The notes under the pieces: generated by a model | What the model saw: the letters and a program-made list of their open reading frames with translations, nothing else | Databases searched by the model: none | Told to the model about the DNA's origin: nothing | Source of the DNA: Lacinutrix sp. | Lineage (GTDB): Bacteria; Bacteroidota; Bacteroidia; Flavobacteriales; Flavobacteriaceae | Assembly (NCBI RefSeq): GCF_029238095.1 | Contig: NZ_JAQWGS010000026.1 | Span: 186,001-250,000 of the forward strand | Direction of reading: 5' to 3' | Length of the DNA stretch: 64,000 nucleotides | Translations under genes and position numbers: made by a program | In this document: positions 1,356 through 32,080 of the stretch, piece after piece | Layout of the letters: the number at the start of each line of letters is the position of its first letter | How positions within the stretch are numbered: the stretch's first letter is position 1

Positions 1356-2417
1356 ATGAAAAGACATAATTTTAGCGCAGGACCATGCGTATTACCAAAA
1401 GAAGTTATCTTAAAAGCATCAGAAGCCTTATTAGACTTCGATAACGGCTTATCATTAATAGAAATATCACACAGAAGCAAACCTTTTGTCGATGTTATGG
1501 AAAAAGGTAGAGCTCTCGCGCTAGAGCTTCTTGGTTTAGAAGGCAAAGGATACAAAGCTTTGTTTTTACAAGGAGGAGCGAGTACTCAGTTTTTAATGGT
1601 CGCGCTTAATTTATTAGAAAAACGTGCAGGATACTTAAATACAGGAACTTGGAGTGATAAAGCAATTAAAGAAGCTAGAATTTACGACGATGTATACGAA
1701 GTAGCTTCTTCAAAGAACGCAAACTTTAATTATATTCCAAAAGGTTACGATGTACCTTCAGATTACGACTATTTTCATTGCACCTCTAACAATACTATTT
1801 TTGGTACACAAATGAAAAGTTTTCCAAAAGTAGATATTCCAATGGTATGTGATATGAGCAGTGATATTTTTTCTCGCACACTCGATTTTTCACAATTCGA
1901 TTTAATTTATGCAGGAGCTCAAAAAAATATGGGTCCAGCAGGAACAACTTTAGTAGTGGTTAAAGAAGATATTTTAGGAAAAGTATCGCGTAAAATTCCT
2001 TCTATGATGGATTATAAAATTCATATAGATAAAGGTAGCATGTTTAATACACCACCTGTTTTTGCAGTATACACCTCTATGTTAACTATGCAATGGTTAA
2101 AAGATTTAGGTGGTATTAAAGCAATAGAAGAAGAAAACGAAAAGAAAGCAGTTTTAATGTATTCTGAAATAGATTTAAATCCACTTTTTAAAGGTTTCGC
2201 TGCAAAAGAAGATCGTTCTAAAATGAATGCAACATTTACCTTAGAAAACGAAAATTTAAAAGAAACTTTTGAGGCTATGATAGCAGAGGCTGGAATTAAC
2301 GGATTAAATGGCCATAGAAGTGTTGGTGGTTACAGAGCTTCAATGTATAATGCCTTATCCTTAGACAGTGTTAAAGTATTAGTAGAAGTCATGAGTGAAT
2401 TAGAAAGTAAAGCTTAA
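1356..2417 (+). CDS. serC: Phosphoserine aminotransferase
   Basis: 353 residues, full length for the family. It begins MKRHNFSAGPCVLP, the FSAGP signature of SerC, and carries the PLP lysine in YAGAQKNMGPAG (Lys190). The C-terminus has GHRSVGGYRAS, the phosphate/substrate-binding segment. It converts 3-phosphohydroxypyruvate and glutamate to O-phosphoserine in the cytoplasm. serA follows 79 bp downstream, so the pair supplies the serine pathway. Its product O-phosphoserine is also a known substrate of cysteate synthases, which may matter for the cysteine-synthase-like gene at 26971-28017 (inference). Confidence 0.96.
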   Translation: MKRHNFSAGPCVLPKEVILKASEALLDFDNGLSLIEISHRSKPFVDVMEKGRALALELLGLEGKGYKALFLQGGASTQFLMVALNLLEKRAGYLNTGTWSDKAIKEARIYDDVYEVASSKNANFNYIPKGYDVPSDYDYFHCTSNNTIFGTQMKSFPKVDIPMVCDMSSDIFSRTLDFSQFDLIYAGAQKNMGPAGTTLVVVKEDILGKVSRKIPSMMDYKIHIDKGSMFNTPPVFAVYTSMLTMQWLKDLGGIKAIEEENEKKAVLMYSEIDLNPLFKGFAAKEDRSKMNATFTLENENLKETFEAMIAEAGINGLNGHRSVGGYRASMYNALSLDSVKVLVEVMSELESKA

Positions 2418-17674: not shown

Positions 17675-19129
17675 TTATCGTTTTAGATACTTGTTAAGAA
17701 TAGCGTTTACGTCTTTGGAAAAATTAAAACGATACACCACAACACCATAGATAACCACAACAATTATAGATTTTATTGCCATATTTAGTATGGGATGCCA
17801 ATTAAATTCCCAAAAGTAAAAACTAAATGAAAGTATCGTTATTAAAGACAATACATATAAAGTAGATTTAGAAAATGGATGCATTTTAAATTGCTTGTTT
17901 ACATACCAAATTTTTAAACTTCCATATAAAAACAAGGCAATAAATGAAGCAATTGCTGCTCCATTAATATCGTAAATTGGAATTAAAATATAATTAAGCA
18001 TTACATCAACAAAAATGATTAAAACACCAAATAAAAGAATGATTCTATAATAATTAGAATTAAAAATGATTGAATTATTGATACCTAGCAAACTGTCTAT
18101 TAATTTAACAACTGAAATAATAATAACAACAAACAACGCTTGACTATATTCAACTTGCATTAAAGCATATAACTGGTTAATATTTACTACAATTAAAACA
18201 AATAGCAAACCACTTACTATTACTAAATTCAACGAAGATTTTTTATATAATACTGAAAGCGATACATTATCGTGTTCGTTTAAAAATTTTGCTGTTAAAG
18301 GATACGTAATTTGATGCATAGCTCTAGCTGGAACAGCAATTACAATAGCAATATATACAGCAACATTATAATAGGCAATATTTTCTATCTCTATAAGTTT
18401 ACCTAGCATAAATTTGTCTAGATCTAACATAAACATAGCAACAGAACCTGCTATAATTATTAATACACTATACTTTAAAACTGAAAACACCTCAAAATTA
18501 AATTTAAAATCTAATTTGGGAAATCTTAAACTAAAAGCATAAAGCTTCATTATCAGCATTCTTAACACATAAACTATTGCAATTGCAATAATAAATTGTT
18601 CTACATTTAAAAGTTGATAATACAAAGCGAACAGTAGAATCAAAATACAAAAACGATGAAACACTTCTTTCATGATGTTACCAAAAACACTTTTGTAATG
18701 TATTTTACTCCAAGCAAAAAACACCTCAAAATAAGCCATTGCAACAGCTATAATATAAATCAAATATGTATAATCTTTAATAATCGTATTTTCAGTAGAT
18801 AACCAGTTACTGATAGTTTCATAACCAAAAATGCCAATTAAACCTATAGGTATTATAGCTATTAAAGGTAAAAACAACATTAATGTTAAAAAGCTATTTT
18901 GCTGATTTTTAGTTTTATAAGAGGTATAAAACTTAACTAAAGTATTACTTACACCAAACATAAAAAATGGCATCATTACATTGGCTGTAGAGAGCAAGAA
19001 ACCTACTAAACCGTAATACGCGTCTGTTAAAAAATTAGTGTATAGAAAAAGTGTGTTTATTGCACCTATTGCAAAACCAATAAAGGTTGTGATAGTATTT
19101 TGAATAGATTGTTTTATTACAATTCCCAT
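17675..19129 (-). CDS. Polysaccharide flippase (MATE/MOP superfamily, Wzx-like)
   Basis: 484 residues with about 14 membrane helices, the usual number for oligosaccharide flippases that move lipid-linked glycans across the inner membrane. It begins MGIVIKQSIQNTITTFIG, the common amphipathic start of these proteins. It is the last gene of a four-gene minus-strand operon (DUF4834, YfhO, GT4, flippase) with gaps of 20-31 bp, which supports a role in export of a surface glycan or glycolipid. Confidence 0.88.
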   Translation of the reverse strand: MGIVIKQSIQNTITTFIGFAIGAINTLFLYTNFLTDAYYGLVGFLLSTANVMMPFFMFGVSNTLVKFYTSYKTKNQQNSFLTLMLFLPLIAIIPIGLIGIFGYETISNWLSTENTIIKDYTYLIYIIAVAMAYFEVFFAWSKIHYKSVFGNIMKEVFHRFCILILLFALYYQLLNVEQFIIAIAIVYVLRMLIMKLYAFSLRFPKLDFKFNFEVFSVLKYSVLIIIAGSVAMFMLDLDKFMLGKLIEIENIAYYNVAVYIAIVIAVPARAMHQITYPLTAKFLNEHDNVSLSVLYKKSSLNLVIVSGLLFVLIVVNINQLYALMQVEYSQALFVVIIISVVKLIDSLLGINNSIIFNSNYYRIILLFGVLIIFVDVMLNYILIPIYDINGAAIASFIALFLYGSLKIWYVNKQFKMHPFSKSTLYVLSLITILSFSFYFWEFNWHPILNMAIKSIIVVVIYGVVVYRFNFSKDVNAILNKYLKR

Positions 19130-19149
19130 AAATTTAAAACGCCTTGACT

Positions 19150-20436
19150 TTAAAACTCTAAAAGTATTTTAGATAGTTTTTGTGTTAAATGCACTCTACT
19201 ATATTGGCTTACTCCAATAGGTTTGGCCTCTAAATTTCCAAATTTAAAAGCTTGAAAATGACTTAATATTTTTGCTTTTAATGCTGTTTTAGCATTATAA
19301 TAAAAATAATCTCCTGTATTGGTTTGTTTAATAATAGTCTCAACATCTGATCCCGAAGGACCAATAGCAATAATAGGTCTGTTTGAGACCATATATTCAA
19401 ATAGTTTTCCAGGAATTATGGCTTTTGTATCTTGAGAATCTATTTCAATTAACAATAAAACCTGTGCTTTTTTTTGATACTTAACAGACTCATTGTGTGA
19501 TACATAACCAACATTGTTCAAGTATTTAGTTAAATTATACTTTTCAATAGTACTTAAAATTTCTTCACCTACTAATCCTACCAAATTAAGCTTAAAGTAT
19601 TGAGCAAATTCGTCGTTTTCATTTATTAATTCTTGAAGAGATTGCCATAAAATTAAGGGATTACGTTTAGATAAAAATGAACCAATATGAGCTAATGTAA
19701 ATTTAGAATCTAAAGTTTTAGCTTTAACTTGTTCTATATCGTAACCATTAGTAATAACTTCAATAGGCTTTGTTGTTAACTGTTTAAACTCAGTTTTAGT
19801 GACATTACTCGTTACAATAATAGTATCTGCGTTATTTAGAACTTCACTTTCAAGTCTCTTATGTCTTTTTTTAGCAATTTTTGTTAATTTTAATTGTTTG
19901 TGGTAACCAATAGTTGTCCACGGATCACGAAAATCTGCGATCCATCTAATATCTATATTCTTTTTTAATTTAAAGCCAATAAGGTGTAAACTGTGTGGTG
20001 GTCCTGAGGTGATAACAGTATCTATATTATAGTCTGAAATATAGGTTGAAAGATAACGAACAGAAGGTTTTACCCAATTTTTTCTTGCATCTGGTATAAA
20101 GAAATTACCACGAACAAAAAGCATTGCTTTTTGAATAATACTTTGTTTATTTTTATCTGGAAATATACCTTTACTAATCGTTTTTGTGCTTTTAGAAAAT
20201 ACATTTGCAATTTTATAAGGCTCACTAATAGGCTGTTTAAGTATAGTAATACCTTTAGGTATTTCGTCTAATAAACTGTTATCTATTTGAGGATAAACTG
20301 GGTTTGATGGACAATAAACAATAGGTTCTATATTAAATTGAGGTAAATATTTTACAAATTTTAGCCAACGTTGCACGCCTGGTCCTCCTGCTGGTGGCCA
20401 ATAATACAAAACTATTAAGACTTTTTTTTTCTGCAT
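19150..20436 (-). CDS. Glycosyltransferase, GT4-like
   Basis: 428 residues. The N-terminal domain begins KVLIVLYYWPPAGGPGVQR, the loop that binds the sugar-nucleotide phosphate region in GT-B enzymes, and the C-terminal domain has PGKLFEYMVSNRPIIAIGP, the donor-binding E-x7-E-like region of GT4 family members. It transfers a sugar to a lipid or glycan acceptor at the cytoplasmic side of the membrane. The operon context with YfhO and a flippase points to surface glycan assembly. Donor and acceptor unknown. Confidence 0.9.
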   Translation of the reverse strand: MQKKKVLIVLYYWPPAGGPGVQRWLKFVKYLPQFNIEPIVYCPSNPVYPQIDNSLLDEIPKGITILKQPISEPYKIANVFSKSTKTISKGIFPDKNKQSIIQKAMLFVRGNFFIPDARKNWVKPSVRYLSTYISDYNIDTVITSGPPHSLHLIGFKLKKNIDIRWIADFRDPWTTIGYHKQLKLTKIAKKRHKRLESEVLNNADTIIVTSNVTKTEFKQLTTKPIEVITNGYDIEQVKAKTLDSKFTLAHIGSFLSKRNPLILWQSLQELINENDEFAQYFKLNLVGLVGEEILSTIEKYNLTKYLNNVGYVSHNESVKYQKKAQVLLLIEIDSQDTKAIIPGKLFEYMVSNRPIIAIGPSGSDVETIIKQTNTGDYFYYNAKTALKAKILSHFQAFKFGNLEAKPIGVSQYSRVHLTQKLSKILLEF

Positions 20437-20467
20437 GAAAATAATTATATGCTATTAGTAAAAGCTT

Positions 20468-22936
20468 TTATTTTTTCTTTCTAAAATGAAAAAATAAACC
20501 TCCAAAAACAATAAGCATTAATAGAATTGAACTTGTTAAAGTTATAGTTGTACCTGTTTTAACAACTTGTGGCTCAAACTTAAATTCAATATTATGCTTC
20601 CCTTTAGGAATTTCCATACCACGTAAAAGGTAATTTACACGGTTATATGCGATTTTTTCGTTATTAATGTAGGCATTCCAACCGTTTATATAATACATTT
20701 CAGAAAACACAGCATAGCCATCGTTGGTATTGTTAGCTTCGTATTTTATATAATTAGGTTGGTATTCTATAACCTTTATAGTAGCTAAAGAATCTACTAG
20801 AAACTTTTTATTTTGTTCTTTAAGTTCAATAGTATTAATTACTGCTTCTGTTTTAGTTTTTAAATCAAATAGCGCAATAATTTCTTCATCTGCAGTATTA
20901 ACTGCTTTTAGTTTTTTTATAAACCATGCATTTCCGTTAGCATCAGAATTTAAGTAAGGATAAGGTTGGTTAGTGTCGTCTTCACTAATAATATACTTAA
21001 CATTAAGCATATTAAGAATTTCTATGTTGCTTGTAAAATCGTAAAAATCTGAAAGTTCATCAAAACGTTTTGGTTTTGCTGCATGATAACCATTAATTGT
21101 ATTATGAAAATATGGAGCAGAATTACCACCATTAGTCATATCATCTACTTTTTGAGAAATGGCTCTTCCTCCTCCTGAACTTACATCGTAAACTCTAAAA
21201 TGATCTGGATCGTTTAAAATTAATTTATCGGCATTATTAGGTTTAAAGGGTCTTTGTACTTCTTTACTGGTTACAAAATTATCTGAATTTACATAGCGTC
21301 TATCTACACCAACTAAATCAAAAATAATTAATATAGCAAAAGCTATAATTACTTTATTTTTAGAAAGTTTTTGCTTTAAAAACAAGTAGATTGTTCCTGA
21401 GGAAATTAGAACTAGTAACATGGTTCTTAGCGTATCATTTCTAAAAATTGCTTTTCTATCTGCAACAATTGCATCTACAAAATCTTGTCCTCTAACTTCT
21501 GCCCAACTTGCGTCTCTAATACCTTCAAAATCTAAAAGAATTCCTGTATATTTAAAAATCAAGAATAGTGAACATAAACCAGCTGTAATAAGTGTTGTAA
21601 ATTTTAAAGCTTTTAGTTTATTTTCATCTTTTTCATAGTCATTAAATAATCTTACCAATCCAAAAACTCCCAAAACTGGTACACATAGTTCTATAATTAT
21701 TTGTATAGACGTTACTGCTCTAAACTTATTGTACAATGGCACAAAATTGATAAAGAAATCTGTTAATATACTAAGGTTTTTTCCATACGATAGTAATAAA
21801 GCTAAAATTGAAGCTGCTACTATCCACCATTTTAGTCTGCCTTTTACTAAAAACAAGGCGAAAATAAATAAAAACAAAGATACTGCTCCAATATAAGCAG
21901 GAGCTTCTACTATGGGTTGATTTCCCCAATATGTAGGTATAACTTTTGCTGCTTCTGATGCTTGGTAAGGAGGAACATTTCTACTTCTGTAAAATTTATA
22001 AAAAGCAGAATTCTTTCCTAAATCCTCATACATTCCTCCTCCTAAAAACCTAGGAATAAACAAGTTAAATGTCTCTAAGTAACCATAGCTATACTCTGTG
22101 ATTCTTTCTTTAGCTAAACCAGAACTAATTTCTTTTCTTGGTGATCCATCTGGCTTAATGGTTAACTCTGTTTTACTACGCGTACTTTCTTTAGCATATT
22201 CTTGAGTTGCCAATATGTTAGTTGCATTTAAACCAATTGCAAGTATCACAGCAGCTAATAGTATTCCTGTAGACCTAAAAAAGTGTGTTAATAATTTCTT
22301 TTTACAGGCATCTATTAAATATACAGTTCCTAGAACAATAACCAAAATCAACAAATAATATGTCATTTGAAAATGGTTTGCTACAATCTCTAATCCCATT
22401 GCAACTGTGGTTAAAACAAAACCAACAATATATTTTCGCCTAAAGGTTAACACAATACCACTTAAAACTAAAGGCATATAGGCAATAGCATGAGCTTTAC
22501 TATTATGCCCAACACCTAAAATAATTATTAAATAAGTAGAGAACCCAAAAGCTAAAGCACCAATAATAGCTAATTTATATTCTACTTTTAAACTGAGTAA
22601 TAAAATATATAAACTAACAAAATATAAGAACAAATAATCTGCAGGACGTGGTAAAAAGCGTAAACTTAAATCTAAGTTTTTAATATAGGTGTGTGGATAC
22701 CTAGCTCCAAGTTGGTAGGTTGGCATACCTCCAAAAGCACTGTTTGTCCAGTAGGCTTCTTCACCAGTTTTTGCTTTAAAATCCTGTTGTTGCTTAGCCA
22801 TACCTTTGTATTGCAAAATATCGCTTTGTAATATTTGTTTACCTTGTAATACAGGACTAAAGTATGCTAATGAGAGTATTATAAAACCTACGAGCACAAC
22901 TAAATGTGGAAGGATTTTTTTAAAAGTTGATTGCAT
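20468..22936 (-). CDS. YfhO family integral membrane protein
   Basis: 822 residues. A dozen or so membrane helices in the first 560 residues, one helix at the extreme C-terminus, and between them a large soluble domain (about 570-790) with NNEKIAYNRVNYLLRGMEIP. This layout is that of YfhO proteins, GT-C type membrane glycosyltransferases that glycosylate teichoic acids in Gram-positives; in Bacteroidetes the acceptor is not settled. It sits between DUF4834 and a GT4 glycosyltransferase in one operon. Confidence 0.9.
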   Translation of the reverse strand: MQSTFKKILPHLVVLVGFIILSLAYFSPVLQGKQILQSDILQYKGMAKQQQDFKAKTGEEAYWTNSAFGGMPTYQLGARYPHTYIKNLDLSLRFLPRPADYLFLYFVSLYILLLSLKVEYKLAIIGALAFGFSTYLIIILGVGHNSKAHAIAYMPLVLSGIVLTFRRKYIVGFVLTTVAMGLEIVANHFQMTYYLLILVIVLGTVYLIDACKKKLLTHFFRSTGILLAAVILAIGLNATNILATQEYAKESTRSKTELTIKPDGSPRKEISSGLAKERITEYSYGYLETFNLFIPRFLGGGMYEDLGKNSAFYKFYRSRNVPPYQASEAAKVIPTYWGNQPIVEAPAYIGAVSLFLFIFALFLVKGRLKWWIVAASILALLLSYGKNLSILTDFFINFVPLYNKFRAVTSIQIIIELCVPVLGVFGLVRLFNDYEKDENKLKALKFTTLITAGLCSLFLIFKYTGILLDFEGIRDASWAEVRGQDFVDAIVADRKAIFRNDTLRTMLLVLISSGTIYLFLKQKLSKNKVIIAFAILIIFDLVGVDRRYVNSDNFVTSKEVQRPFKPNNADKLILNDPDHFRVYDVSSGGGRAISQKVDDMTNGGNSAPYFHNTINGYHAAKPKRFDELSDFYDFTSNIEILNMLNVKYIISEDDTNQPYPYLNSDANGNAWFIKKLKAVNTADEEIIALFDLKTKTEAVINTIELKEQNKKFLVDSLATIKVIEYQPNYIKYEANNTNDGYAVFSEMYYINGWNAYINNEKIAYNRVNYLLRGMEIPKGKHNIEFKFEPQVVKTGTTITLTSSILLMLIVFGGLFFHFRKKK

Positions 22937-22966
22937 AAATAATGATATGATTCTTAAAACCGAAAA

Positions 22967-23221
22967 TTAATCAATTTCTTCGTAATCTACATATTCACCA
23001 ACCGTTTTGTTTGAAGTTTTATTTTCAGGCATTTTATCTATTGTTATTTCGCCTGCTTTTTTTGGTGGTTGTTGCTTGTTTTGGTTACCAAAATCTCTAA
23101 ACTGGCTACCAAAACGTTCTGCAGCCTTTTTGGTGAAGTATTTAAGGATTAATGGTCCAAAATATCTTGAGATAATTTTTACACCAAGATAAATTAATAA
23201 GATTATTAGTAGAACTCTCAA
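22967..23221 (-). CDS. DUF4834 family small membrane protein
   Basis: 84 residues: one N-terminal membrane helix (1-17), a basic amphipathic part with YFTKKAAERFGSQF, and an acidic end EYVDYEEID, typical for DUF4834. It is the first gene of the YfhO operon, with its own promoter element at 23251-23258. Function unknown. Confidence 0.85.
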   Translation of the reverse strand: MRVLLIILLIYLGVKIISRYFGPLILKYFTKKAAERFGSQFRDFGNQNKQQPPKKAGEITIDKMPENKTSNKTVGEYVDYEEID

Positions 23222-23250
23222 AATAAAATATAAACAGTAATATTAGAAAA

Positions 23251-23258
23251 CAAAAATA
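23251..23258 (-). promoter_or_regulatory. Promoter -7 element of the YfhO operon
   Basis: Read on the minus strand, TATTTTTG matches TAnnTTTG and lies 29 bp before the DUF4834 start. Confidence 0.55.
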
Positions 23259-23312
23259 CAAATCTTGTAGAGTAATTTCAGATTAAAATCCTTAAAAAAA
23301 ATATAAAATCTC

Positions 23313-23320
23313 TATATTTG
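23313..23320 (+). promoter_or_regulatory. Promoter -7 element for outer-membrane protein gene
   Basis: TATATTTG, 18 bp before the ATG at 23339. It overlaps an in-frame ATG at 23318, which is thereby excluded as start. Confidence 0.6.
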
Positions 23321-23338
23321 AACCTAAACCTAAAACTT

Positions 23339-24367
23339 ATGTTCCTAAATAAAACTTATTTAACAATAATCTTATTTATTGCTAGTTTAACAGCACAAGC
23401 TCAATATACAGAAGTTATAAACTCTAATCGTCCTGGTGTTTCAAGATCTGCCTTTTCTGTAGGTACTAATGTTGTACAATTTGAAGCAGGACCATTTACT
23501 GTAAAAGAAGAGCATACACCTTTAAAATATGATGTTTCTGGTTTTGGTGTCGATTTTGCAGCACGTTATGGACTACTGTTACCTCAGTTAGAAATAAATA
23601 TAGAAGGTACTTATCAAAATGATACACAAACAGATTTTAGATCTTTAATACCAACAGAATTTAAGCGTTCAAATTTTAAAAACCTAACCGTAGGCGCAAA
23701 ATATCTTGTTTACGATCCATATAAAAATGCTGAAGAAGAAAAACCAAATATTTATAGTTATCACGCCAACAAGCGTTTTAAATGGAGTAGTTTAATTCCT
23801 GCTGTTGCTGTTTATGTTGGTGCAAATTTTGATACTAAAGACAATCCATACACTGCTCCTGGAGTTGAAGGTTTTAGTCCAAAAGTAATGGTTGCCACAC
23901 AAAATAACTTTTCTAGTGGTTGGGTTTTGGTAATGAATTTCTCTAAAGATAAAATAGGTACAGATTTTTCAGATTTTCAATATATAGTTACAGTTACAAA
24001 AGCCATTAATCAACAATGGGTTCTATTTGGTGAAACACAAGGTATACAAAGCGATTTTTATGCCGATAATCTATTTAGATTTGGTGGTGCTTATCTTTGG
24101 AGTAAAGATTTTCAGCTCGACACGGCTTTAACGTTTAACACAAAAGATACGCCTTCTGTATTTGGTGTAAATTTAGGTGTATCTTATCGTTTAGATTTTC
24201 ATAAAGATCCAGAAATGGATAATGGAACATCTGCAGAAGAAGAAGCCGAACGTAAAGCAAATAAAAAACGTAAAAAGAAAAACAAGAAAAATAAAGATGA
24301 TGATGCACCAGATGGTGATAAAAAGCGCAAAAAAGAAACTCAGAGTATAGATTTTGATGACGAATAA
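23339..24367 (+). CDS. Outer-membrane beta-barrel transporter-like protein with Lys-rich tail
   Basis: 342 residues from the ATG at 23339. Signal peptide MFLNKTYLTIILFIASLTAQAQ. The part to about residue 285 shows alternating beta strands (FEAGPFTVKEE, NLTVGAKYLVYD) like the MetA-pathway/transporter barrel family. The last 55 residues are highly charged (NKKRKKKNKKNKDDDAPDGD), unusual for an outer-membrane protein, whose last strand normally ends the chain. The stop codon overlaps the next start by one base (TAATG), so the two genes are translationally coupled. Confidence 0.8.
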   Translation: MFLNKTYLTIILFIASLTAQAQYTEVINSNRPGVSRSAFSVGTNVVQFEAGPFTVKEEHTPLKYDVSGFGVDFAARYGLLLPQLEINIEGTYQNDTQTDFRSLIPTEFKRSNFKNLTVGAKYLVYDPYKNAEEEKPNIYSYHANKRFKWSSLIPAVAVYVGANFDTKDNPYTAPGVEGFSPKVMVATQNNFSSGWVLVMNFSKDKIGTDFSDFQYIVTVTKAINQQWVLFGETQGIQSDFYADNLFRFGGAYLWSKDFQLDTALTFNTKDTPSVFGVNLGVSYRLDFHKDPEMDNGTSAEEEAERKANKKRKKKNKKNKDDDAPDGDKKRKKETQSIDFDDE

Positions 24368-25497
24368 TGCATATGATTACAATTAAAATTGTTACCTCCA
24401 AAAAGGACTTAAAAACATTTGTTAAGTTTCCGTTTTCTCTATACAAGGACTCAAAATTTTGGGTGCCTCCTATTATTAGTCAAGAAATGGAGACTTTTAA
24501 TAAAGATAAGAATCCTATTTTTAACGATGCTGAAGCCACGTTACTACTTGCTTACAAAGACCAAAAACTTGTTGGACGCGTTGCTGCCATTATTAACTGG
24601 CTTGAAGTAAAAAACCAAAATCTGCTTAAAATGCGTTTTGGTTGGTTTGATTTTATAGATGATTTAGAAGTTTCCAAAGCACTTTTAGACGAAGTAGATA
24701 AGATTGGTAAAGCACATAATCTTGAATATACAGAAGGTCCAGTAGGGTTTTCGAACCTAGACAAGGTTGGCGTAATGACAGAAGGTTTCAACCAGATAAG
24801 TAATATGATAACATGGTATAACCATGCCTATTATATTAAACATTATGAAGCTTTAGGTTTTAAGATAGAAAAATCCTACTCAGAAAGTAAATTTCCTTTT
24901 AAAAACGTTAAACCAGAGTTTTTCTATAAAGCTCAAGAACTCATAAAACGGCGTTACAAATTAACTGCTTTGCAGTTAACAAAAACATCTGAAGTGATGC
25001 CTTATGTAGACAGAATGTTTGATTTGTTTAATGCTTCTTATGCTTCCCTGTCTTCTTTTGTTGAAATTACAGATATTCAAAAAGAATATTTTAAAAAGAA
25101 ATTCATCTCTTTTGTAAATCCTGAGTATATTAAATTTGTAGTCGATGAAAATGATAATATGGTTGCTTTTGCTATTGTAATGCCAAGGTTCGCACATGCT
25201 TTACAGGAAATGAATGGTAGATTGTTTCCCTTTGGTTTTGCAAAATTACTAAAGGCTAAAAAAACTAGTAAAGATGTTGTTTTCTATTTAATAGGTGTAC
25301 ATCCAGATTACCAAAACAAAGGTGTCCACGCTGTTATTTTTAATGAGTATTATGAAACTTTTAAAAAGAAAGGTATTATAGATTGTTATAGAACACCAGA
25401 ATTAGAAGATAACGATGCCATACATAAAATTTGGAAACATTTTTTTCCAGTTGTTATTAAACGAAGAAAAACCTACAGAAAAAACATTAGTTATTAG
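24367..25497 (+). CDS. GNAT-like N-acetyltransferase family protein
   Basis: 376 residues. The protein has an N-terminal region with SLYKDSKFWVPP and LVGRVAAIIN, and a C-terminal GNAT-type fold with the acetyl-CoA loop region FYLIGVHPDYQNKGVHAVIF (about 311-330). Proteins of this length are common in Bacteroidetes and are variously named; substrate unknown. An alternative start is the third codon (ATG at 24373). It is coupled to the outer-membrane protein gene and followed by a terminator. Confidence 0.75.
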   Translation: MHMITIKIVTSKKDLKTFVKFPFSLYKDSKFWVPPIISQEMETFNKDKNPIFNDAEATLLLAYKDQKLVGRVAAIINWLEVKNQNLLKMRFGWFDFIDDLEVSKALLDEVDKIGKAHNLEYTEGPVGFSNLDKVGVMTEGFNQISNMITWYNHAYYIKHYEALGFKIEKSYSESKFPFKNVKPEFFYKAQELIKRRYKLTALQLTKTSEVMPYVDRMFDLFNASYASLSSFVEITDIQKEYFKKKFISFVNPEYIKFVVDENDNMVAFAIVMPRFAHALQEMNGRLFPFGFAKLLKAKKTSKDVVFYLIGVHPDYQNKGVHAVIFNEYYETFKKKGIIDCYRTPELEDNDAIHKIWKHFFPVVIKRRKTYRKNISY

Positions 25498-25514: not shown

Positions 25515-25552
25515 AAAAAAAAATCCGATTCAAAATTGAATCGGATTTTTTA
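25515..25552. terminator. Bidirectional terminator
   Basis: AAATCCGATTCAA (25521-25533) pairs with TTGAATCGGATTT (25536-25548) with A and T runs on either side. It serves the convergent genes at 24367 and 25571. Confidence 0.88.
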
Positions 25553-25570: not shown

Positions 25571-26830
25571 TTATTCTCCCATTGCTTTCATTAAAGCAGC
25601 AGACATTCTTTTATAAGTACCATTTTCTAAACGTGTTCTAATGGCATCAAAAGCATCTAATGTTTCAGCAACATCTTGTAAAGTATGTGTTGCTGTTGGA
25701 ATCATACGTAATAATATTAATCCTTTAGGAATTACTGGATAGACTACTATTGAGCAGAAAATACCATAATTTTCTCTTAAATCTCTAACTAGAGCCATAG
25801 CCTCAGGAATACTTCCGTTAAGATATACTGGTGTTACACAACTTGTAGTAGAACCAATATCAAATCCTCTTTCTTTCAATCCAGATTGTAGCGCATTAAC
25901 AATTTTCCATAAGTTTTGCTTTAACTCTGGCATTGTACGTAACATATCTAATCGCTTTAGAGCACCTACTGTTAAAGTCATTTGTAAAGACTTTGCAAAC
26001 ATTTGCGAGCGCAGATTATATTTTAAATAATCCATGATCTCTTTGTCTCCAGCAATAAAGGCACCTGTACTCGCTAAAGATTTTGCAAAAGTTGCAAAAT
26101 AAACATCTATGTCATCTTGAACACCTTGCTCTTCTCCAGCTCCAGCTCCTGTTGCTCCTAAGGTTCCAAAGCCATGAGCATCATCTACTAACAACCTAAA
26201 ATTAAATTTCTGTTTAAGCGCTACTATTTCTTTTAATCGTCCTTGTTCTCCTCGCATGCCAAAAACACCCTCAGAGACTACTAGAATTCCTCCTCCAGTT
26301 GTTTCTGCCATTTTGGTAGCACGTTCTAGATTTTTTTCTAGACTTTCGATATCGTTATGCTTGTAAGTAAAACGTTTTCCCATATGCAAACGCACACCAT
26401 CTATAATACAGGCATGAGAATCTACATCGTAAACTATTATATCGTCTTTAGCTACCAATGCATCTATTGTAGACATGATTCCTTGGTATCCAAAATTTAA
26501 TAAATAAGCGGCTTCCTTACTTACAAATGCTGCTAATTCATTTTGAAGTTTTTCATGTAATGCTGTATGACCAGACATCATTCGTGCTCCCATTGGATAT
26601 GCAGAACCATATTCTGCAGCTGCCTCTGCATCTACTTTACGAACTTCTGGATGATTTGCTAAACCTAAATAATCGTTAATACTCCAAGTAATAACGTCCT
26701 TTCCTTGAAACTTCATACGGTTTGATATTTGTCCTTCTAGTTTTGGAAAAACAAAATAACCTTCTGCCTGCTCAGCCCATTTTCCTAATGGACCTTTATC
26801 CTTGTATATTTTTGCAAATAAATCTTTCAT
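25571..26830 (-). CDS. PLP-dependent acyltransferase, probable cysteate C-fatty acyltransferase (sulfonolipid synthesis)
   Basis: 419 residues. Alpha-oxoamine synthase fold (as in BioF, Kbl, serine palmitoyltransferase): VDSHAC with His139 stacking on PLP, DDAHG (216-220), and Schiff-base Lys250 in ATFAKSLAST. These enzymes condense an amino acid with an acyl-CoA or acyl-ACP and release CO2. The neighbouring cysteine-synthase-like gene points to cysteate as amino acid, giving 3-ketocapnine, the precursor of the sulfonolipids of gliding flavobacteria. Alternatives: serine palmitoyltransferase or glycine C-acetyltransferase. It has its own promoter. Confidence 0.85.
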   Translation of the reverse strand: MKDLFAKIYKDKGPLGKWAEQAEGYFVFPKLEGQISNRMKFQGKDVITWSINDYLGLANHPEVRKVDAEAAAEYGSAYPMGARMMSGHTALHEKLQNELAAFVSKEAAYLLNFGYQGIMSTIDALVAKDDIIVYDVDSHACIIDGVRLHMGKRFTYKHNDIESLEKNLERATKMAETTGGGILVVSEGVFGMRGEQGRLKEIVALKQKFNFRLLVDDAHGFGTLGATGAGAGEEQGVQDDIDVYFATFAKSLASTGAFIAGDKEIMDYLKYNLRSQMFAKSLQMTLTVGALKRLDMLRTMPELKQNLWKIVNALQSGLKERGFDIGSTTSCVTPVYLNGSIPEAMALVRDLRENYGIFCSIVVYPVIPKGLILLRMIPTATHTLQDVAETLDAFDAIRTRLENGTYKRMSAALMKAMGE

Positions 26831-26855
26831 TTGTAATTTGTTAGTTTAGAGAATA

Positions 26856-26863
26856 CAAAATTA
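26856..26863 (-). promoter_or_regulatory. Promoter -7 element for the acyltransferase
   Basis: TAATTTTG on the minus strand, 25 bp before the start at 26830. Confidence 0.55.
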
Positions 26864-26911
26864 AGCAATTCTAAGTTTTTTGTATAACATTTTTTCATTG
26901 TATTATTAACA

Positions 26912-26947
26912 TAAAAAAAGCTAATACTTTTTTATGAGTATTAGCTT
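26912..26947 (-). terminator. Terminator after cysteine-synthase-like gene
   Basis: AAGCTAATACT (26918-26928) and AGTATTAGCTT (26937-26947) form an 11-bp stem; on the minus strand it is followed by a T run. Confidence 0.85.
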
Positions 26948-26970
26948 AAATATTAATTAGCAATATAATC

Positions 26971-28017
26971 TTATTTAATGTATTGAATACTTTGTGCGGC
27001 TTCAGCGTTTTTGCTATCGAAAAAACCTTGTTCGCTCATCCATTTATCGCTATAAATTTTACTCATATAGCGTGAACCATGATCAGGAAAAACAACAACT
27101 ATAGTATCTGAGGCTTTAAATTCACCTTCAGCATCTAGTTGTTTTACTGCTTGCATAGCTGCTCCAGAAGTATAACCTACAAACAAACCTTCGGTTGTTG
27201 CAATCTCTCTAGCAGTGTGTGCGCTTTCTTCGTCTGTAACTTTTACAAACTTATCTATGGCATCAAAATCTGTAGCTGTTGGAATTAAATTTTTTCCTAA
27301 ACCTTCAATACGGTAAGGATAAATTTCTTTATCATCGAACTCTCTCGTTTCATGGTATTTTTTTAGTACCGAACCAAAAGCATCTACTCCAATAACTTTT
27401 ATATTTGGATTTTGTTCTTTTAAATACTTTGAAATACCTGAAATGGTACCTCCAGTTCCACTACATGCTACTAAATGTGTTATATTACCTTCGGTTTGGT
27501 TCCATATTTCTGGTCCTGTAGAAGCGTAATGAGCATCTATATTTAGTTGGTTGAAATATTGGTTAATATATACAGAACCTTTCATTTCGTCATGTAAGCG
27601 CTTAGCTACTTGGTAATATGATCTAGGATCGTCTGCACTTACATTTGCTGGACAAACATAAACCTTGGCTCCCATATTTTTTAGCATATCTATTTTATCT
27701 GCCGAAGATTTAGAGCTCACTGCTAAAATACAATCATAACCCTTAATAACGCTAACCATAGCAAGACTAAAGCCTGTATTACCTGAAGTTGTTTCAATAA
27801 TAGTGTCTCCTGGTTTAAGGATTCCTTGCTTCTCAGCTTGTTCAATAATATATAGTGCAATTCTATCTTTAGAAGAATGTCCTGGATTAAAAGATTCAAC
27901 TTTAGCTAAAAAGTTACCTTTAAAATCCGAAGTCATTTTTTTTAGCTTTATCATTGGTGTATTACCTACTAGGTCTAATACGTTATCAAAAACTTGTCTT
28001 TCATGTGCCATAAACAA
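26971..28017 (-). CDS. Cysteine synthase-like PLP enzyme, probable cysteate synthase
   Basis: 348 residues (346 from the third codon, ATG at 28011). Fold-type II PLP enzyme: Schiff-base Lys50 in [16 protein letters not shown] (76-82) and the phosphate loop SGTGGT (186-191). Ordinary cysteine synthases carry PGGSVKDR; the change to PGHSSKDR suggests a different substrate. Together with the adjacent acyltransferase, the best fit is a cysteate synthase making L-cysteate from O-phosphoserine and sulfite for sulfonolipid synthesis. Plain cysteine or cystathionine synthesis is the alternative. The function is inferred from gene pairing, not proven. Confidence 0.8.
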
Positions 28018-28063: not shown

Positions 28064-28071
28064 CAAAAATA
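28064..28071 (-). promoter_or_regulatory. Promoter -7 element for cysteine-synthase-like gene
   Basis: TATTTTTG on the minus strand, 46 bp before the start at 28017. Confidence 0.5.
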
Positions 28072-31039: not shown

Positions 31040-32080
31040 TTAAAAATTAAAAGTCTGTAAATAACTTAAAAAAGCATCATGCATTCTAGAATTATAGTCT
31101 AAATGCGTTACTATTCTTAATTTTCCTTGTCCCATATCACTTATAAAAATACCTCTATTTTTTAGTTCATTTATAAAAGTAACACCATTAATGTCATCAT
31201 TTAAATTAAAAATAACAATATTGGTTTCAACTGGTTTTACATTTTTTATAAAAGAACAATTTTCTAAAACAGAGCCTATTTCCTTAGCTTTTTTATGGTC
31301 TTCCTTTAATAGTATTAAATTATTATCTAATGCATAAAGTCCTGCTGCAGCTAAAAATCCAACTTGACGCATACCACCTCCAAGAATTTTTCTAATTCTT
31401 ATAGCATTTTTCATTAAATGTTCGTCACCCACTAATACTGAACCAATTGGACAACCTAATCCTTTACTTAAACAAACAGAAATAGTATCGAAAATTTCAC
31501 CATAAGCTTGAGGTTTTTCATCTTTAGCTACTAATGCATTCCAAAGACGTGCACCATCTAAATGAAATCCTAGGTTATTAGTCTCACAAACATTCTTTAT
31601 TTTTTGTAGCTCGTTAAAATCCCAACAAGATCCTCCACCTTTATTTGTAGTGTTTTCTATTTCTACTAAAGTGGTTAATGGACTGTGGTAAAAATCTGGA
31701 GGATTAATAGCTTCTATAACTTGTTCTGCAGTAAACATACCTCTATTGCCATCGATTAATTTACAAGATACACCACTATTAAAAGAGGCTCCTCCACCTT
31801 CGTAGTTGTAGATATGAGCATATTTATCGCAAATAACTTGATCTCCAGGATTAGTATGTAACTTTATTGCGGTTTGGTTAGCCATTGTTCCACTAGGAAA
31901 AAACAAAGCATGAGACTTACCAAATAGCTTGGCTACACGTGCTTCTAAAGCATTAACAGTTTCATCTTCCTTATAGACATCGTCTCCTACTTTAGCACTA
32001 ACAATAGCTTCAAGCATACCTTGAGACGGCTTAGTAAAGGTGTCACTCCTTAAATCAATTTTTATCTGTTCGTCTTTCAT
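31040..32080 (-). CDS. Low-specificity L-threonine aldolase (GntG-type PLP aldolase)
   Basis: 346 residues. Starts with IDLRSDTFTKPS, the RSDT signature of the family, then FFPSGTMANQTA (60-71), DGARLWNA (175-182) and Schiff-base Lys206 in CLSKGLGCPIGS. It splits L-threonine or allo-threonine to glycine and acetaldehyde in the cytoplasm. Full length. The gene is single and divergent from prfB. Confidence 0.93.
   Translation of the reverse strand: MKDEQIKIDLRSDTFTKPSQGMLEAIVSAKVGDDVYKEDETVNALEARVAKLFGKSHALFFPSGTMANQTAIKLHTNPGDQVICDKYAHIYNYEGGGASFNSGVSCKLIDGNRGMFTAEQVIEAINPPDFYHSPLTTLVEIENTTNKGGGSCWDFNELQKIKNVCETNNLGFHLDGARLWNALVAKDEKPQAYGEIFDTISVCLSKGLGCPIGSVLVGDEHLMKNAIRIRKILGGGMRQVGFLAAAGLYALDNNLILLKEDHKKAKEIGSVLENCSFIKNVKPVETNIVIFNLNDDINGVTFINELKNRGIFISDMGQGKLRIVTHLDYNSRMHDAFLSYLQTFNF

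Follow-up and report, generated by a model that had tools for sequence, protein, structure and literature searches.

A probable sulfonolipid locus in Lacinutrix sp.: capA, capB and a facing tandem-GNAT gene as candidate capnine N-acyltransferase

Described sulfonolipid enzymes and the capA-capB pair

Sulfonolipids are unusual membrane lipids of gliding bacteria. They have been linked to gliding, to choanoflagellate development and to host inflammation (PMC10191378, PMC11211663). Three of the four steps of their synthesis have been described, those of CapA, CapB and CapC/KCR. The chemistry of CapA and CapB is already published (PMC10191378, PMC12927429), and deletion of the Flavobacterium johnsoniae capB gene, Fjoh_2419, established that it is needed for sulfonolipids (PMC12045153). 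A capnine N-acyltransferase was not named in the literature covered by our search, a partial coverage with some key papers outside it. Here we analyse a 64,000-nucleotide stretch of Lacinutrix sp. DNA (contig NZ_JAQWGS010000026.1, positions 186,001 to 250,000; hereafter the window), in which a first-pass annotation, made from the sequence alone, had proposed a capnine synthesis pair. We read this region as a sulfonolipid locus composed of capA, capB and a facing gene for a tandem-GNAT protein acting as N-acyltransferase, and we give this reading, as a whole explanation, a probability of about 0.6. The capA and capB genes are known already, and the adjacent tandem GNAT is a good candidate for the N-acyltransferase.

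In the pathway that we propose, CapA would form L-cysteate by exchanging the phosphate group of O-phosphoserine for sulfite, and CapB, a pyridoxal 5'-phosphate (PLP) enzyme, would join cysteate to a fatty acyl thioester, yielding 3-ketocapnine and CO2, with Lys280 of CapB placed to neutralise the sulfonate. A short-chain reductase encoded elsewhere in the genome would reduce 3-ketocapnine. The GNAT would then put a second acyl chain on the amino group of capnine, or on that of 3-ketocapnine if the order is the one proposed for Caulobacter, and the end product would be an N-acyl sulfonolipid of the outer membrane. Steps 1 and 2 are assigned from the close homology of CapA and CapB to enzymes already characterised.

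The pair consists of two adjacent open reading frames (ORFs) on the minus strand, placed where the first-pass annotation had them. The capB gene (25571-26830) encodes an alpha-oxoamine synthase of 419 amino acids, with the PLP lysine at Lys250 and the DDAHG motif starting at residue 216. The capA gene (26971-28017) encodes a cysteate synthase of 348 amino acids when counted from the TTG at 28017, although translation may in fact begin at the ATG at 28011; its PGHSSKDR motif begins at residue 45 and contains Lys50. All of these motifs, as previously claimed, are present in the translations. CapA scored 648.8 bits against the NCBIfam equivalog NF053679, 'cysteate synthase CapA' (cut-off 600), and fell below the cut-offs of the NCBIfam models for cystathionine beta-synthase, cysK and cysM. 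Its top match in the PDB, 9k2p, which carries a generic name, reached 509 bits, and the runner-up, a cystathionine beta-synthase, 277 bits. The PLP-lysine motif took the form PG[H/L/Q]S[S/T/A]KDR in all 11 adjacent CapA relatives, and the window version agrees with PGxSxKDR.

For CapB, the top PDB match was 28eh, a 'Cysteate-C-fatty acyltransferase', at 716 bits over the whole length. The second, 7u7h, has a generic PDB name, and we take it to be the SulA of Alistipes; it scored 568 bits, as against 241 bits for the best serine palmitoyltransferase (SPT) in the PDB. CapB was also below the cut-off of the NCBIfam kbl model, and it scored 295.8 bits with the SPT model NF047600 (cut-off 640), a threshold out of reach for the majority of SPT-linked synthases in the phylum as well, so that a single lysine or alanine residue is the sharper test. 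At this position, equivalent to residue 281 of SulA, the window CapB has Lys280; a lysine was found in 73 of 73 CapB relatives and an alanine in 21 of 21 SPT-like sequences. In SulA of Alistipes finegoldii, which shares the CapB fold and the PLP lysine, Lys281 (alanine in SPT) is the single clear active-site difference (PMC9304779).

Because of the CapA model score, the CapB structure matches and Lys280, it is near certain, as far as sequence can tell, that the pair is capA and capB, the first two sulfonolipid enzymes, and hence known biology; the capnine-pathway reading of the first-pass annotation is borne out. The same folds (Pfam PALP and Aminotran_1_2) would be expected if an ordinary cysteine synthase stood next to Kbl or SPT, but we regard this as very improbable. 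The profile and PDB scores and Lys280 contradict it, and they equally contradict the groupings (of CapA with a true cysteine synthase, of CapB with Kbl or SPT) that the annotation had set against its own proposal. By profile, closest structures and diagnostic lysine, the window enzymes are the same as CapA and CapB of Capnocytophaga ochracea and the acyltransferases of F. johnsoniae (Fjoh_2419) and Chryseobacterium gleum. Alistipes, unlike the window, obtains cysteate from a different, archaeal-type synthase (PMC10191378).

The tandem-GNAT gene facing capB

The first-pass annotation had stated that neither a ketoreductase nor an N-acyltransferase lies next to the pair. The former holds, the other flanking gene being a prolyl oligopeptidase. 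The latter is probably wrong, since an ORF with homology to ceramide synthase, predicted to encode a tandem GNAT, faces capB across 73 bp. This ORF (24367-25497, plus strand; 376 amino acids) probably has its conserved start at the ATG at 24373, and it is convergent with capB. Pfam detected a weak GNAT domain in it; an NCBIfam search of the window protein found no family, nor did a Pfam search of YghO from Escherichia coli BL21. The two proteins align end to end (25% identity, 378 aa, E = 1e-34). Both yghO and Caulobacter CC_1154 are listed as the acyl-CoA N-acyltransferase gene needed for ceramide synthesis (PMC9386255). An AlphaFold2 model built with 31 sequences (predicted local distance difference score, pLDDT, 89.3; predicted template-modelling score, pTM, 0.86) shows a tandem-GNAT fold for the predicted protein, and its top Foldseek matches were the tandem GNATs 2wpw and 7q3a (E = 3e-13 to 6e-13, 8-10% identity).

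The window GNAT thus resembles the bacterial ceramide synthases (CerS/bCerS; CC_1154 and YghO) in length, in shared motifs and in full-length homology, a likeness measured against YghO rather than CC_1154 and, for the tandem fold, on a model of the window protein only. Like them, it is linked to the gene of a long-chain-base synthase; unlike them, it adjoins one that uses cysteate, not serine. It is the one member of its family in the window genome, which is 89% complete, and it is not part of the capABC set as described in PMC12927429, PMC10191378 and PMC11211663. Because of this homology, and of the linkage and phyletic pattern presented below, we consider ORF 24367-25497 to be probably the capnine N-acyltransferase, responsible for the fourth step.

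Linkage, occurrence and phylogeny of the GNAT family

The linkage to capB was examined from both sides. We collected 73 CapB neighbourhoods from other genomes, about 9 kb on each side where the contig allowed, and sought the GNAT in them by phmmer (E <= 1e-5) with the window protein as single query, a search that divergent members could escape. Of these neighbourhoods, 11 had capA next to capB and co-oriented with it, and 13 contained the GNAT. Twelve of the 13 came from the window's own family, that is, from 12 of its 18 relatives, and all 12 were convergent; six had a gap of 52-99 bp and six a gap of 669-770 bp holding one small gene. In the six remaining relatives the GNAT was far off or on another contig (five) or was not found (G053). 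A short-range linkage of capB and GNAT across the phylum was therefore not found, with 13 of 73 neighbourhoods positive and 12 of these in one family. Starting from the GNAT, we retrieved with a GNAT alignment the best 80 loci of at least 467 database relatives, a set that has members (G021 and G142) in common with those 18 relatives. capB was within 5 kb of the GNAT in 62 of these best 80 loci and convergent in all 62, the gap being at most 150 bp in 32, at most 1 kb in 23 and larger in 7. Of the other loci, 13 lacked capB although 2 kb or more of sequence was available on that side, and 5 had a shorter flank.

One of the 62 loci is from F. johnsoniae CI04 (L308), which has the convergent arrangement of the window with about 0.7 kb between the two genes; its capB is presumably Fjoh_2419. 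The presence of the GNAT beside capB in this species provides a single-gene candidate that makes the last step directly testable. The nine genomes of genus g2, inferred to be Flavobacterium, differ from the window: in all of them capA is absent from the stretch of about 9 kb on either side of capB, and six of the seven with the GNAT nearby have a small gene separating it from capB.

Judged from its adjacency to SPT in the phylum, the GNAT family is frequently linked to long-chain-base synthases. A GNAT match (E <= 0.001) was found in 189 of 198 genomes of the window's phylum. In 106 phylum genomes both an SPT and a GNAT were among the matches listed, and in 59 of these the two were within 2.5 kb; 38 of the other 47 belong to one family, f16. 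In the 20 pairs that were fetched, and which were picked for adjacency, the GNAT was directly downstream of SPT on the same strand. According to PMC11334938, which cites an earlier study, Bacteroidota that produce sphingolipids do not have spt, bcerS and cerR close to one another; of the genomes counted here, the 47 non-adjacent ones agree with that statement, whereas the 59 adjacent ones do not.

We then compared the occurrence of the family with that of the two synthases. The 89% complete window genome had no match to the SPT model NF047600 at E <= 1e-112. It had two weaker matches, the better one at 1.4e-106, both in the range of other alpha-oxoamine synthases (CapB itself gave 4e-88); in the 18 other sampled genomes of the window's family the best E lay between 1.7e-105 and 3.4e-88. 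The full-length SPT sequences used for comparison had at least 445 bits (E of about 1e-133 or better). In a sample of 119 genomes of the class, SPT was scored as present at E <= 1e-112, a limit that admits G255 (379.7 bits), which may not be SPT-positive, and a GNAT member was taken as convincing at E <= 1e-40. Such a member was present in 70 of 99 genomes with CapB and no SPT, in 1 of 9 with neither and in 11 of 11 with SPT. Five genomes with weak or partial matches (two with CapB, three with neither gene) are counted here as lacking the GNAT, and 12 GNAT-negative genomes were obtained by difference. The contrast between CapB-only genomes and those with neither gene gave a Fisher p of 0.0007, which is indicative only because the genomes are related; by family it was 38 of 49 against 1 of 7. 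This pattern fits a GNAT that acts on whatever long-chain base its cell produces. In the phylum sample, the genomes without CapB or an SPT-level match gave a mixed picture: G001, G006, G011 and G016 had no GNAT match, and three others, taken up below, had one.

Two trees were built on chosen sequences (70 in the first, 74 in the second). In the first, rooted for drawing only, the CapB-adjacent GNATs fell into one large clade and 20 of the 21 SPT-adjacent ones into another, together with YghO; 20 SPT-adjacent GNATs in the trees had been selected for that adjacency. The clade of the window GNAT thus leaves out 20 of the 21 SPT-linked members. Also in the CapB-side clade are second copies found in SPT genomes that lack CapB. 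In the second tree a third clade appeared, whose 19 sequences all belong to CapB genomes; this is partly a product of choice, 19 of the 20 loci fetched for it having come from genomes with CapB. Given such mixed contents, the clades follow the pathway only loosely.

Several of our observations weigh against a role of the GNAT in capnine acylation. They would fit a GNAT that is a neutral neighbour of capA and capB and acylates something else, perhaps together with the protein encoded upstream of it, while an unrelated enzyme N-acylates capnine. The upstream gene (23318-24367, plus strand; PF13557, Phenol_MetA_deg in Pfam), whose product we take to be an outer-membrane barrel, lies directly 5' of the GNAT gene and is its probable operon partner. 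In 76 of the best 80 loci it immediately precedes the GNAT gene on the same strand, a tighter tie than that to capB (62 of the 80), and the GNAT retains it in five relatives with capB elsewhere. The GNAT gene is convergent with capB rather than co-directional, and the two are separated by a terminator-like hairpin of 15 pairs with a T run (25518-25551, called on the minus strand), near-symmetrical, which could serve both genes. In the class sample, 29 of the 99 genomes with CapB and no SPT, some of them incomplete, have no convincing member. Universality of the family among CapB genomes is thereby ruled out, and the family is not the only solution. Four CapB-positive genomes of the phylum sample, among them G053 of the window's own family, have no GNAT match; if such cells acylate capnine, another enzyme must exist. 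In genus g48 (f22), all eight genomes sampled carry CapB, yet the only family member in each is adjacent to SPT. Conversely, GNAT matches occur without CapB or an SPT-level match in G067 (1.8e-41), G079 (2.1e-29) and G097 (1.3e-12), where SPT may have been lost through incomplete assembly. Finally, the window's subclade is found in SPT-positive genomes without CapB (f15, f25, f33, f39 and f18), and in the second tree the best members from three genomes with SPT only group on the side of the window GNAT. Strict capnine specificity of the subclade is thus ruled out.

We nevertheless consider the neutral neighbour a possible rather than a probable explanation. It does not account for the homology of the GNAT to YghO, an ortholog of CerS, and the window genome, at 89% completeness, has no SPT-level match that the GNAT could serve instead. 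In the class sample, only one of the nine genomes with neither synthase has a convincing member, three more carrying weak partial matches. Moreover, capB and the GNAT stay together in seven of the nine g2 genomes, even though capA has left the side of capB in all nine. These points argue for the GNAT as the capnine N-acyltransferase. Along the same lines, we are inclined to think that ceramides and sulfonolipids share one module, composed of an alpha-oxoamine synthase, a short-chain reductase and a tandem GNAT, and differ mainly in the amino acid used at step one. If true, this would explain in a simple way how one acyltransferase family comes to be common to many producers of ceramides and of sulfonolipids.

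The PF13557 gene is part of a conserved block that travels with the GNAT. In the window it spans 17675-24367 and includes, besides the PF13557 gene, a short ORF, a YfhO-like membrane protein, a glycosyltransferase and a flippase-like gene. A role in the envelope or in lipid export is our guess for this block.

Reductases, acyl supply and the surroundings of the pair

In Caulobacter, N-acylation of the ceramide precursor has been argued to come before reduction, bCerS being cytoplasmic and CerR periplasmic (PMC11087976), and by analogy the GNAT might acylate 3-ketocapnine ahead of its reduction rather than capnine. We think this order unlikely for the window. The identified 3-ketocapnine reductases act on free 3-ketocapnine analogs in E. 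coli (PMC11211663). In addition, the best reductase candidates of the window genome, L145 and L146, are classical short-chain dehydrogenases/reductases (SDRs), not of the epimerase type that lies near SPT in four genomes. The best NCBIfam match of L146 was KdsR, at 257 bits, below the cut-off of 400. We sought a curated CapC model for 4 of the 17 PF00106 matches in the window genome, and none was among the best 25 NCBIfam matches of each.

In 3 of 44 loci the GNAT gene is divergent from a gene for a classical short-chain reductase, at a distance of 46-72 bp (L236:634-2659, L237:1449-3488 and L241:542-2641). All three genomes have CapB, and their reductase resembles L145 of the window genome most closely. 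These loci possibly pair the last two steps, and may provide a lead for the 3-ketocapnine reductase.

The four genomes with the epimerase-type SDR (L213, L214, L216 and L217), which are of the same class, have SPT, GNAT and SDR together, in clusters reminiscent of the spt cluster of E. coli BL21. In E. coli BL21(DE3), yghO lies beside fatty acyl-AMP ligase, epimerase, acyl carrier protein (ACP) and spt genes (L122:4283-9886). This strain was the expression host in PMC11211663, and the cluster could contribute background when sulfonolipid enzymes are assayed in this host.

In three f22 genomes with CapB as well as SPT, a window-clade GNAT is encoded in a tight gene run together with an ACP, a ketoacyl synthase, a FabA-like dehydratase and a family-2 glycosyltransferase (L125:14497-19646, L180 and L199). 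The L125 run includes an SDR, whose best NCBIfam match, FabL, is below its cut-off, and its near end is 4 kb from capB. These runs suggest an acyl-ACP donor and are possibly a dedicated acyl-chain supply for an N-acylated lipid.

Within the pair, the first-pass annotation had placed a terminator between the two genes and a promoter before each. A terminator-like hairpin does lie between capA and capB (26918-26947, minus strand); the scan gave three such sites, one of them inside capB, against 1.2 expected from shuffled sequences. On the promoters the picture is mixed. By pattern match only, each gene is preceded on the minus strand by one TAnnTTTG box, which we take to be the Bacteroidota -7 promoter consensus: at 26856-26863, 33 bases 5' of the capB ATG, and at 28064-28071, 5' of capA. 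The sigma-70-type promoter scan was no richer than shuffles (7 sites against 11.3). Separate promoters for capA and capB are, on this evidence, plausible.

The O-phosphoserine used by CapA could be supplied by an unlinked serC, which, as previously noted, is about 23 kb away. This gene for phosphoserine transaminase (1356-2417, plus strand) scored 448.8 bits with NF003764 (cut-off 253) and 425.1 bits with TIGR01364 (serC_1), slightly below the cut-off of 443.6, and adjoins a phosphoglycerate-dehydrogenase-like gene. Elsewhere in the window, ORF 31040-32080 encodes a PLP-dependent aldolase that scores above the cut-off of NCBIfam NF041359 (GntG family) and is probably an ordinary threonine aldolase-type enzyme.

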